From contig NW_027506985.1 of the NCBI RefSeq assembly GCF_052324685.1, positions 1 through 64,000 on the forward strand: a DNA stretch of 64,000 bases, read 5' to 3'. Under the pieces are notes generated by a model. It saw only the letters and a list, made by a program, of their open reading frames with translations, was not told where the DNA came from and did not search any database. Numbering within the stretch: the first letter of the stretch is position 1; each line of letters opens with the position of its first letter. The position numbers and the translations under genes are program-made. Positions 4,769-64,000 of the stretch are shown in pieces. The DNA comes from Brachyhypopomus gauderio. Taxonomy: Eukaryota; Chordata; Actinopteri; Gymnotiformes; Hypopomidae.

Positions 4769-7700
4769 AGAGAACGGGACAGTCTGCGTGCAGAGCTGGA
4801 CCAATTAAGAGATGAGAGGAGGAGAGAAAGGGAGGAGCTGGATAAAGAGAGAGAGGGAAGGAGGAGGGAGAGGGAGGAGAGCAAGAGGATGATGGAGGAG
4901 AGAGAAAAACTTCAGGCTAGATGTGATGAACTCCACAGAAGGCTCAGGTAATACACACACAAACACACACACACACACACACACACACATACACACACAT
5001 TAGCTTTGACCAAGTCAGTACTGGTCTCTGGTGACACAAATGCAAGGTACACAGAGTGTGTACATGTACAGATCTGTGTTGGTGTGGAGGGCTCCCTCCA
5101 AGTGGAGGAAATGGAACCTCCTCTCTCCCCTGTGCCCACCTCCCACAACCTCCCGCAGCATAGACAAGTATGTGGGTGTGGGTGGGTGTGGGTGGGGAGG
5201 GAGGCTGTCCGATTGTATGTATTTATCATATGTTTATATACTCGTTTGTAATCTCCTCTCTCTCTCTCTCTCTCTCTCTCTCTCTCTCTCTCTCTCTCTC
5301 TCTCTCTCTCTCTCTCTCTCTCTAGCTTGCAGGAGTATATTTCAGGTGAAGGTGTCCAGCAGAGAGCAAGACAGTTCTTGGAGAAACAGACCAGCTGTCT
5401 GAGAGTGAGACAGGCGGCACTAAGGACGGCCCACCCCAGCCCGCAGAGGTCCGCTGCAGGAGGCTCTGCTCAGCCTCTCTGCCAGGTCCGTCAAGTCTAG
5501 TCAGTTTTATTTATAAAGCGCTTTTTACAAAACATGGTGTCACAAGCGCATGGGTCCAGATCCCTATTGAACAAGACAGGGGCAAGTGTGGCAGAGACAA
5601 ACTCCCTATGCGGATTAGGAAGAAACCTTGGGAGGACCAAGATCCTAAAGGGAAGCCATGCTCAATTGGCCCAGCAACTTTAAGTTCATATTTATAGTCC
5701 TGTGTCTATCTGAGCAGTCACAGTCTCTCCAATATGGATGCTGGGCCTCAGGTAGGATGCTGGCCGTATTGGCACATGCATCCACGGCATCAGCACATCC
5801 ACTGGCAACCCAGAGCATCTTCTAGCTCCTTTATGGAATTGTCTTTGTAGAAACATGTAGTCAAGATACAGAATGCAGGTTAATATGTAAAATCAAATTA
5901 AACTTCCATATATATAGCACACGTGCCAGTGACTTAGCATGTGGCTCCAGCAGGCTTATCCCTAGCAGCATAACTAAAGGGAGGGGCCTGGAGGTGACCA
6001 CAGGCATGAGGGTACTGAGACATTACTCTGCCTTCGGCTGTAATCTTGTGCTTTGAGAGAGCAGCAGGTGAGATGATTATGGTATGCAGTGAGTTCACTC
6101 GGATATTGTGGAGGACTATTTAATGCTTTATAGGCCAACAGAAGAATTTTAAAATCAGTTTGATATTTAAACAGGAGCCAGTGCAATGCTGAGAGAGTAG
6201 GACTAATGTGATGCACTTCTCAAGGCCTAGTTAGGACTCTGGCTCTTGGATTCAAGTTGGAATGCAGCAAGTTGGACTTTCTTTAGGGACTGTTTAGAGC
6301 ATCCAATTAAAAGTAGTCCAATCTTGATGAGATTGTGGACCAGTTTCTCTGCGTCTGATACCGAACGTACATGTCTCAGCTTGGCAATATTACATGAAGG
6401 TGCAAAGGCAGCATTAGTGACATTGCATATGTGTGTGTCAAATGAAAGATCCTAATCACTAGTGACGCCTAAACTTTTAGCAGGAAATTCAGGTGTTACT
6501 GAAAAGCCATCTAGTGTAATAAGAAGATCAGACCCATTGCTTCTAGCACCCTTGAATCCAAGAAGTAACACCTCAGTCTTATTAGAATTTAGAAGAAGAG
6601 AATTAGACGCCATCCAGTTCTTTATTTCTTGGATGCAGTTCTTAGTTTTGGTAGTAGTGTTGACATCATCCAAATTAGAATATATATATATATATATATA
6701 TATATATATATATATATATATATATATATATATATATATATATATATATATATATATAAAACAGAGTATCATCTGCATAGCAATGGAAGCTAATACCATG
6801 CCTACAAATGCTTGCTAGCCTATATAATGAGAATAACATGGGACCCAATACAGATCCTTATGAGCATTCATTATTTTCAAGTACAAATTTGTAACGATCG
6901 GTCAGGTAGGATTTGAACCAGGAGAGTGATTGACCTTTTATCTGAGAATATTAAGAGATCGTTAACTACTTTAGAGGGTTTCAGTGCCGTGGTGGGTCTA
7001 AGCACGTTAGGTCTTGCAGTGCCTACAGCCATGTAGCCAGGTCAGATGGGAGAGAGTAGGAAGCATGAGTATAGCTCCTCTTAGATGTTCTGCTCCCCTG
7101 TGCTGTAGGAGGTGAGTGAGCTGGAGAAGCTGAGGGAGAGGGTCCAGAAGGGCCACGCGATCCTGAGAAAGAAGGAGGAGAGACTCGGCCAGCTGGAGAC
7201 GTCACTGGCAGAGGAGGTAACACACACATACACACACACGTATGCCTGCACCCACACACTTACGTACAAACCCACATTAATACCTACCTGGGCTTTACAA
7301 TGTTTTACTGTCTCAGCTGTCATGTGATGAAGGCGAGCGGCTCGTGGGAGATCGGAGAGTCTCTGATGTCACAGAGTCAGAGACGAGTGGTGTGTGTGGC
7401 CAAGAGGAGACGAGTGAGACACACACTCCATGTGCATGCACAACACACACACACGGGCAGACATTTTGAGAAGGCACTAATTTTGGTTTTCACAAAGTTT
7501 ACTACCACAGTTTTTTTTTTATGGTGGCAAGGAAGCAAACTGTGAAAACTAAAAATATGCCCATAACTGTAAACAGCTCTAGAGTCCACTCTGGTCTTGT
7601 TGGTTCATAGTTATCTGATGTTTTTATTTCTCTAGCAGTAATACACCCAAACTCTGGTCTTCCTCTCTGCTACTCCCACTCTCTGTTTCAGCACATGCAA

Positions 7701-61801: not shown

Positions 61802-64000
61802 ATGACAGCAGATGCCCTTCGGAGACCAGTTGGAGACCAGTTGATCCTGGAAGAGGATGAGAATTATCTCCCATCTGAACAAGGTACATTAGCTGTCGCA
61901 TACTACCTGTTACAGTTTAGGACCCCGGATAAAACTTTAATATATGTTACTGAAATGGTATACTTTAATATCCACCATTGATAAAGTCTACAAGCTACAA
62001 CAGTTCCATCATTTAATAACTAAATTATAATGTTGACATAATAACTTAATAATATATAATAATAATAATAATAATAATATATAATAATAATATTAACAAC
62101 ACATGTCCAGTTGGGACTCTTGTATGTTCGTCCAAGCTATAGCTACACTTTATAACATAGAATCAATCTCCATGCATTATGGACTTAACTATTTGAATTT
62201 GTGGGATTTTACTTGATTTGAAAATATCATACTGATTGTGGGTATATTCATCTTATCCGTATTCCTCCTCAGAGGTCCATGAGTATGCCAGAGAAATTGG
62301 CATTGACCCTGATGGGGAGCCAGAGCTGCTGTGGCTGGCCAGAGAGGGGATTGTAGCCCCACTACCTCCTGATTGGAAACCCTGGTAGGACAAACTCATT
62401 CTCATACAGTCACCCAGTTTTCTTATCCTTACACACAGAGCAGTGAGCGTTGGTGTGAGCGTTGGTTCCTTTTAGTAAAATCCAAGCATACTCTAATGTG
62501 CCCTTAATTGAGGAATGGCTTCCATTCCAAGAACTCTACGTATCATTCATGCTGTCTCATTCATTCAGGCTCTTGATTACCTGACGTACCAAGGCCCTTT
62601 GTCCCCTGTAACTCAGTTATAATTTTAAGTACCATTTATAGAAGTAGGATGCATCAGGACTTTATTGTGAGTGTCATAATGTCACACGGACTCTCTGGAA
62701 GCTTGCAAGAAGTGGGCATTGAATCACTTATGACCTAGGTGATTAGATGAGCAAATTAGAAAGCCCAACTTTTTTTTAAAGACCTTGGAACTGCAAGTCT
62801 GGAGAAGACTGAATATTTTGACTGGGAAGTAAGACTGGGCAAGAGAAAATATAACAGACAGAGGAGGATTTTTGAAGTTGGAGAGTATGATGTGACATGA
62901 AAGATCAGACACAATTTAACATATTAAATCATTTTTGGATTCTGTATTCAAATGGTTTGGGGGGAAGTATGTTATAACCTTATTGTCAGGTGTAACAGTG
63001 GTGTCTTTATATGAGTCAGTACCTTCATACATAAAACACATAAAGACAAGATCCAGGGGATATTTAATGTTAGTTGTCCCCGAAACTAACAATTGCAAAG
63101 TATAAAATTAATATTTCATCACTCTATGCAGCAGATTTGCTTGTAGACTTGGCCTTCTGGCACTATTAATCTGAGCAATGAGACCCAGAGCACCACTCAG
63201 TGTTTCAGATGTTGACATATTGACACCTTTGTGGACAGTCCTGTGCTGGAGAACCTAGGCTTGTCTACATGTCATGTGTTTTTATGTGTGTGTTTATCTA
63301 TGTGATGAGCTTGTCTCTCTTTCCTACTCTCCAGTCAGGATGTGACTGGAGAAGTATACTATTTCAACTTCTCCACGGGCCAGTCCACCTGGGACCACCC
63401 CTGTGATGAGCACTACCGCCAACTAGTGGCCCAGGAGCGGGAGTGTGCTCAGCCATGCCACGGCCATGCCATGGATGAAGAGGAGGAGGATGAAGAGCCG
63501 AAGAAGGCGTCTGTCCATGAGGTGAAAACACCTGCTAGAATATAATGCTCTGATTTTTAGCTCACTGTCACCTTTGTAGTCTTTACACTGCAGTTGTTCA
63601 CACATTATGTTCCCAGCTTTTATACACATTTATACAGCGCCACTAACATCACTGTGTGTGCTCACGTGATCTTGGTGTTACTGTAGCACCTTGCTCTACC
63701 TGTCACACACACACACACACACACACACACACGCACACACACACACACACACACACACACACACACACACACACACACACACACACACACACACAGATCT
63801 TGTGAATGTCTGTACATGCATGTTTATGCATGTGTGTTTGCATGTGTTGGTGTGTTTGTCTGTGTATGAGCAGGACAGTGAACTCAGGGTGGCAGAGGAG
63901 ACTGAGCTGGACGTGGACGAAGAAAAGAAAAAGAGAGAGAAGGAGTGTGTGTGTGTGTGTGAGTGTATGTGTGGTGAGTTGTCTGGTCTGTTGCAGGAGG
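61802..64000 (+). CDS. cep164: cep164-like gene, copy 4 (5' part, cut by window edge)
   Basis: Exons 61802-61883, 62273-62384 and 63335-63521 encode the N-terminal block and the WW domain exactly as in copy 1. Exon 4 begins at 63874 and the window ends four bases into exon 5 (63997). No differences in coding sequence are apparent in this part. The (CA)n before exon 4 (about 63704-63795) is the longest of the copies and has the same GCAC interruption as copy 3. Confidence 0.85.

Follow-up and report, generated by a model that had tools for sequence, protein, structure and literature searches.

Why does one locus of the fish Brachyhypopomus gauderio carry the same pair of genes several times over, and are these copies young, genuine and of any use? 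We addressed these questions in the first 64,000 nucleotides of contig NW_027506985.1 (assembly GCF_052324685.1), hereafter the window, for which the original prediction had proposed a tandem array of at least 3.9 units of about 15.2 kb, near-identical even in their introns and each holding two complete genes. Comparison of the window with itself by megablast confirmed the layout. The stretch 4769-64000 consists of some 3.9 direct, head-to-tail units of 15.0-15.3 kb (59,232 bases divided by 15.2 kb), with neighboring units offset by 14,995, 15,046, 15,127, 15,201, 15,214, 15,277, 15,290 and 15,337 bases, and with further direct matches at about twice and three times the neighbor offset. Each unit contains a gene resembling human CEP164 on the plus strand and, head-to-head with it, a YqaJ nuclease gene on the minus strand, both of which were established as complete genes by exon mapping and an open-frame check. 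Cutting the array at CEP164 exon 10 defines unit 1 (7109-22189), unit 2 (22190-37483), unit 3 (37484-52693) and an incomplete unit 4 (52694-64000), all on the plus strand and preceded by a partial unit that starts at 4769. These units are more than 99% identical by substitutions, introns included, and the locus is most likely a young tandem segmental duplication.

The amplified locus is larger than first described, as an inverted partial copy must be added to the direct array on its left. The first part of this arm (1-1698, minus strand) is a reversed copy of 12973-11276 with 99.88% identity and carries, as a YqaJ domain match shows, the portion of the nuclease gene for the C terminus, which in this copy lies on the plus strand. 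Its second part (4194-4754, minus strand) is the reverse of about 11261-10780. The arm ends at a fold-back junction with a short AT-rich filler (4755-4768), which we compared with both unit breakpoints and which connects it to the direct array inside the coding sequence of CEP164 exon 8. The left part of the locus runs in the opposite direction. Moreover, since an inverted copy lies to the left of the direct array and the array itself reaches the right edge, both ends of the window lie inside the amplified locus, which extends beyond them.

Is this arm as young as the direct units? Part 1-1698 shows two mismatches in 1,698 bases to unit 1, four substitutions and a 2-base gap to unit 2, and one substitution and a 2-base gap to unit 3 and likewise to unit 4. 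For 4194-4754, blastn found no substitution in 561 columns against units 2, 3 and 4 (with 22, 10 and 12 gap positions, respectively, in a TA repeat) and 16 substitutions in 486 columns, partly within the TA repeat, against unit 1; megablast counted four mismatches to unit 2 instead of none. The inverted copy, of which one arm holding about 2.2 kb of sequence from the unit is in view before the window edge clips it, is thus of much the same age as the direct units. It is split by a 2.5-kb insertion (1699-4193) that has no other match longer than 300 bases in the window, and so is private to the inverted copy there. The insertion displays near-terminal inverted repeats (1722-1739 and 4175-4192, with 18-nt arms that are 94% complementary) and is probably a non-autonomous transposon. 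It also contains three ATAGCGCC-type repeats, a minisatellite at 2094-2314 and, at its left end, a GCCGCAAGCGGC palindrome, which we take to suggest a Helitron-type element.

Substitutions between the direct units were counted after masking columns within 10 positions of an alignment gap. This removed 11 of the 46 raw variable columns, ten of them within or next to a long AT repeat and the eleventh at a CA repeat, and left 35 variable columns among 14,611. Over these columns, unit 1 differs from units 2 and 3 by 28 and 20 substitutions, and unit 2 from unit 3 by 20; over 10,962 columns, unit 4 differs from units 1, 2 and 3 by 17, 10 and 4. Pairwise divergence in the masked alignment ranges from 0.036% (units 3 and 4) to 0.192% (units 1 and 2), and BLAST identities, which count indels, are lower (96.6-99.8%). 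The left partial unit (4769-7108), compared without masking, has 11 mismatches in 2,426 columns to the end of unit 1, 8 in 2,426 to unit 3, and 3 in 2,012 plus 2 in 429 to the end of unit 2. Most of the 20 indel blocks between units fall in simple repeats, bearing out the expectation that the copies differ mainly at microsatellites; the exceptions are an indel of 27 bp and, in an exon of the nuclease gene, a deletion of 2 bp. The 27-bp stretch, at 36306 in intron 9, is present in units 1 and 3 and missing from unit 2.

Copies this similar could in principle arise from an assembly artefact, in which the haplotypes or the reads of a shorter locus were falsely arranged in tandem and inverted order. 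That the units are nearly identical would suit this reading, as would the fold-back, since joins of that kind are a known type of chimera. However, each of units 1 to 4 has private substitutions, 11 of which form a cluster in unit 1, some indels are likewise private to particular units, and the inverted arm has a 2.5-kb insertion of its own; the window contains no N, and two haplotypes of one unit would produce two versions of it, not the five that are seen. We therefore regard an artefact as improbable.

The way in which the substitutions are shared bears on how the copies came to be so alike. Among the 10,962 four-unit columns, 25 have two states, and their patterns (units 1 to 4 in order) are ABBB 12, ABAA 6, AABB 3, AABA 2, ABAB 1 and AAAB 1. 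Eleven of the 12 substitutions private to unit 1 lie in one tract (10320-11459), a degree of clustering reached in none of 20,000 uniform placements; this tract is probably a conversion tract from a more distant copy, or else an older allele. The six sites private to unit 2 show no clear clustering (p = 0.055). The single ABAB column conflicts with the three AABB columns, which is a hint of exchange between units, although one recurrent mutation would explain the conflict equally well. Vertebrate mutation rates are of the order of 0.5-1e-8 per site per generation, and a divergence of 0.036-0.192% therefore translates to roughly 18,000-190,000 generations, unless conversion has reset the clock. 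The proposal that the array is very young or actively homogenized is thus supported by the low divergence (0.04-0.19%), by the equal variability of coding and non-coding columns described below, and by the hint of exchange in the ABAB column. Starting from the array, the inverted arm, the gene models and the divergence as observed, we propose that a 15.2-kb segment with a CEP164-like gene and a divergent YqaJ gene was amplified in tandem very recently, and that the locus turned back on itself at the fold-back junction, giving the inverted arm on the left. The likeness of the copies would then stem from their youth, probably aided by unequal exchange and conversion.

What does the amplified CEP164-like gene encode? 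Our reference model, copy B (31278-39186, plus strand), was built as a gene model with a match to human CEP164 and has 15 exons: 31278-31364, 31778-31889, 32840-33026, 33325-33642, 33731-33874, 34005-34088, 34708-34776, 34965-35161, 35586-35745, 37484-37591, 37692-37788, 38067-38297, 38626-38698, 38864-38953 and 39090-39186. All introns start with GT and end with AG, and exon 4 was modeled as a single exon across a GT-rich stretch in which a short intron is possible. Exon mapping and a frame check yielded 15 exons and 682 residues also in copy A (16151-23894, plus strand) and copy C (46589-54396, plus strand), so that the frame is open across every splice in all three complete copies, the C-terminal exons included. 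The other two copies on the plus strand, both placed by exon mapping, are incomplete: copy 0 (4769-8811) is truncated at its 5' end, with exons 1-7 missing altogether, and runs from within exon 8 to exon 15, and copy D (61797-64000) comprises exons 1-3 and is clipped by the window edge. The 1.5-kb interval between the divergent coding starts of the two genes (29741-31277 in their models) is a candidate shared promoter and probably holds the 5' untranslated exon or exons of the CEP164-like gene.

The N terminus of the predicted protein is that of a CEP164 relative. Residues 9-101 match human CEP164 (PDB 7nwj) with E = 1e-48 and 71 of 95 columns identical, and a WW domain (PF00397, E = 3e-10) is present, which reproduces the N-terminal domain with a WW inserted in a helical bundle. 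Nine residues involved in TTBK2 binding, fold or disease were chosen from two papers. Eight are identical in the fish protein (D10, Q11, P64, G80, D85, H86, D89 and R93), among them the ciliopathy sites Q11 and R93, and at the ninth, I72 is replaced by V. The rest of the protein departs from the full-length architecture. It has 682 residues versus 1460 in human CEP164 (a length deduced from a fragment spanning residues 1046-1460), and most of the middle is absent: exons 3 and 4 are only 298 bp apart, and the N-terminal exons are followed by a short coiled-coil stretch. For this reason we label the gene CEP164-like, shortened, a description by comparison with human only. Its C-terminal end, the region by which CEP164 is targeted to the mother centriole, may resemble that of human CEP164. 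Two repeats lie within the gene. In exon 4, 33456-33645 comprises 2.1 copies of a 90-bp repeat encoding a 30-residue coiled-coil-like segment. In intron 6, a minisatellite (34072-34401, with equivalents in the other units) is built of a 64-72-bp repeat and varies in length between units; because each repeat includes the last part of exon 6 together with the donor region, donor-like sequences recur in this intron.

What could additional copies of such a gene do? According to one study, TTBK2 is brought to the distal appendages by CEP164, and overexpression of the N-terminal region of CEP164 has a dominant-negative effect on cilia (PMC8752127). In mouse, another reports, CEP164 is required for multiciliated cells and male fertility, the null animals having no multiciliated cells in the efferent ducts and being infertile (PMC11545745). 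A mini-CEP164 that keeps the TTBK2-binding N-terminal domain and is devoid of most of the middle might do the work of CEP164, or it could compete with it. Extra copies would raise the dose of this short protein, which would recruit TTBK2 to the distal appendages of the centriole and in this way tune the formation of the cilium or flagellum. We think that such a dosage role is plausible in view of the retained residues and of published CEP164 biology. The explanation to which we incline, with a confidence slightly better than even, is a young amplification of a segment that combines a YqaJ gene with a CEP164-like gene, shortened yet open, leading to a putative dosage effect of a mini-CEP164 that recruits TTBK2. 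As for the types of locus originally suggested for arrays of this kind, the gene content, with CEP164 acting at the base of cilia and flagella, offers no support for an immune role, whereas a locus for germline dosage would be consistent with it. A bolder variant would make the two-directional, still-evolving mini-CEP164 amplicon a germline dosage or interference gene at a sex-linked or driving locus, where an excess of short protein would compete with full-length CEP164 at distal appendages and so alter flagellum or cilium assembly in spermatogenesis; we hold this to be quite unlikely.

The main rival of a working dosage effect, which we favor, is neutral copy-number variation. The array would then be a neutral young segmental duplication, either a copy-number polymorphism or a recent expansion, and its CEP164-like gene a partial duplicate heading to decay, an account that we rate as possible though the less probable of the two. 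Several observations point this way. Coding and non-coding columns are equally variable (8 of 3,566 versus 27 of 11,045; Fisher p = 1.0), one in four nuclease copies is frameshifted, one CEP164 copy is truncated at its 5' end, and the gene has lost the middle of CEP164. Of the four coding sites of CEP164 that vary, three alter the protein (H245Q, L334F and Q367E) and, with coding sequence as variable as the rest, purifying selection since the duplication is not visible. Further points weigh against our preferred explanation: matches to human CEP164, being likenesses of sequence, speak to ancestry and not to activity; the C-terminal half is only tentatively identified as that of CEP164; and the evidence for exchange consists of a single column in conflict with others and a single cluster. 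With so few substitutions, function can be neither proved nor excluded. In contrast, a 682-codon frame spread over 15 exons is intact in all three complete copies and the key N-terminal residues are conserved, and the CEP164-like gene was therefore probably functional until the amplification.

As for the second gene, it has five exons and encodes about 525 residues. It is open on the minus strand in unit 1 (12178-14614), unit 3 (42614-45050) and unit 4 (57822-60258), and frameshifted in unit 2 (27332-29740) by a 2-bp deletion in the third exon. The protein contains a YqaJ domain (PF09588, E = 4.8e-20), matches the exonuclease of PDB 3syy (E = 2.1e-15) and retains the GASPDGL and EIKCPN stretches, and thus has both the domain and the conserved motifs of a YqaJ or lambda-type exonuclease. 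All four substitution sites in the nuclease gene are private to unit 2. We had initially read the unit 2 copy as open through a different splice acceptor, and dropped this reading in view of the 2-bp deletion relative to units 1, 3 and 4. A CxC..CxH cluster looked like a SWIM zinc finger on inspection, and Pfam gave no match to one. The nuclease gene, of which one copy in the four is already broken, probably derives from a transposon and was carried along with the amplified segment. Exact peptide patterns, a weak test, confirmed no relative of the nuclease in viral contigs and none of the CEP164 N terminus in prokaryotic contigs.

A YqaJ exonuclease also invites the idea that the nuclease gene spread the module from within a mobile element of the ISL2EU type (a Harbinger-like transposon), whose second gene is such an exonuclease (PMC9179366). 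We consider this very improbable indeed, since Pfam scans in all six frames over 14.9 kb of one unit gave no match to a transposase domain even with E-values up to 1 admitted, the sole strong inverted pair in 26460-31270 frames a 0.5-kb element, and the units stand head-to-tail at one site in the window. Apart from that pair and weak pairs, the same interval has no terminal repeats; in 23900-26460, the 25 inverted pairs listed of 127 all fall within an AT repeat. The original prediction had placed the same long interspersed nuclear element (LINE) and miniature inverted-repeat transposable element (MITE) insertions in every unit. Our scan, which covered one unit, found there two reverse-transcriptase fragments and a MITE-like pair, and the other units, being nearly identical to it, should carry them as well. 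The first fragment, of a LINE, lies in unit 2 (25341-25766, plus strand; PF00078, E = 1.7e-8), and the second in intron 9 (21609-22013, minus strand; PF00078, E = 3.3e-5, below the cut-off). The MITE-like element (26480-26978, 0.5 kb) has 24-bp inverted ends holding TTAA and is presumably piggyBac-like. A metallo-beta-lactamase match (E = 0.0079, below the cut-off) spans an AC microsatellite and was attributed to composition, as were the low-complexity matches to DUF3915 and Atrophin-1, and no Rfam family reached its gathering score.

A naturally occurring array of shortened CEP164 genes would reveal what portion of this protein can be dispensed with, and whether the dosage of a ciliary gene is subject to selection or conflict. 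The locus is also well suited to measuring exchange among its copies, having both direct and inverted parts with some tens of base differences between them. A literature search, which mostly left aside subscription journals, returned no report of CEP164 amplification among the matches listed.

How does this locus compare with known systems? Human CEP164 (UniProt Q9UPV0; PDB 7nwj and 7o3b) has the same N-terminal domain, with a WW in a helical bundle, as the array gene, and yet it is a protein of 1460 residues, whereas the array gene encodes 682, exists in several tandem copies and has, with about 300 bp of intron, little room for the long middle region. The YqaJ or lambda-exonuclease family (PF09588; PDB 3syy) shares with the array nuclease its domain and conserved motif stretches; the array gene differs by about 330 residues that precede the domain and contain the Cys/His cluster, and by its five exons. 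ISL2EU elements likewise bring a gene for a YqaJ exonuclease into the genomes of animals (PMC9179366), but in the array no transposase was found, nor were terminal repeats in the resolvable part (26460-31270). The ampliconic gene families of ape Y chromosomes resemble the array in their near-identical multi-kb units, partly inverted and suspected of exchange; the array, however, is made of 15-kb tandem units with only one short inverted arm in view. Finally, tandem arrays in other fish, of antifreeze genes (PMC13032017) and of the myosin gene MYH3C (PMC12776057), are likewise reported to be recent expansions in copy number of a gene-bearing unit, and compared with them the array described here multiplies a centriolar appendage protein that has no obvious environmental dosage role.

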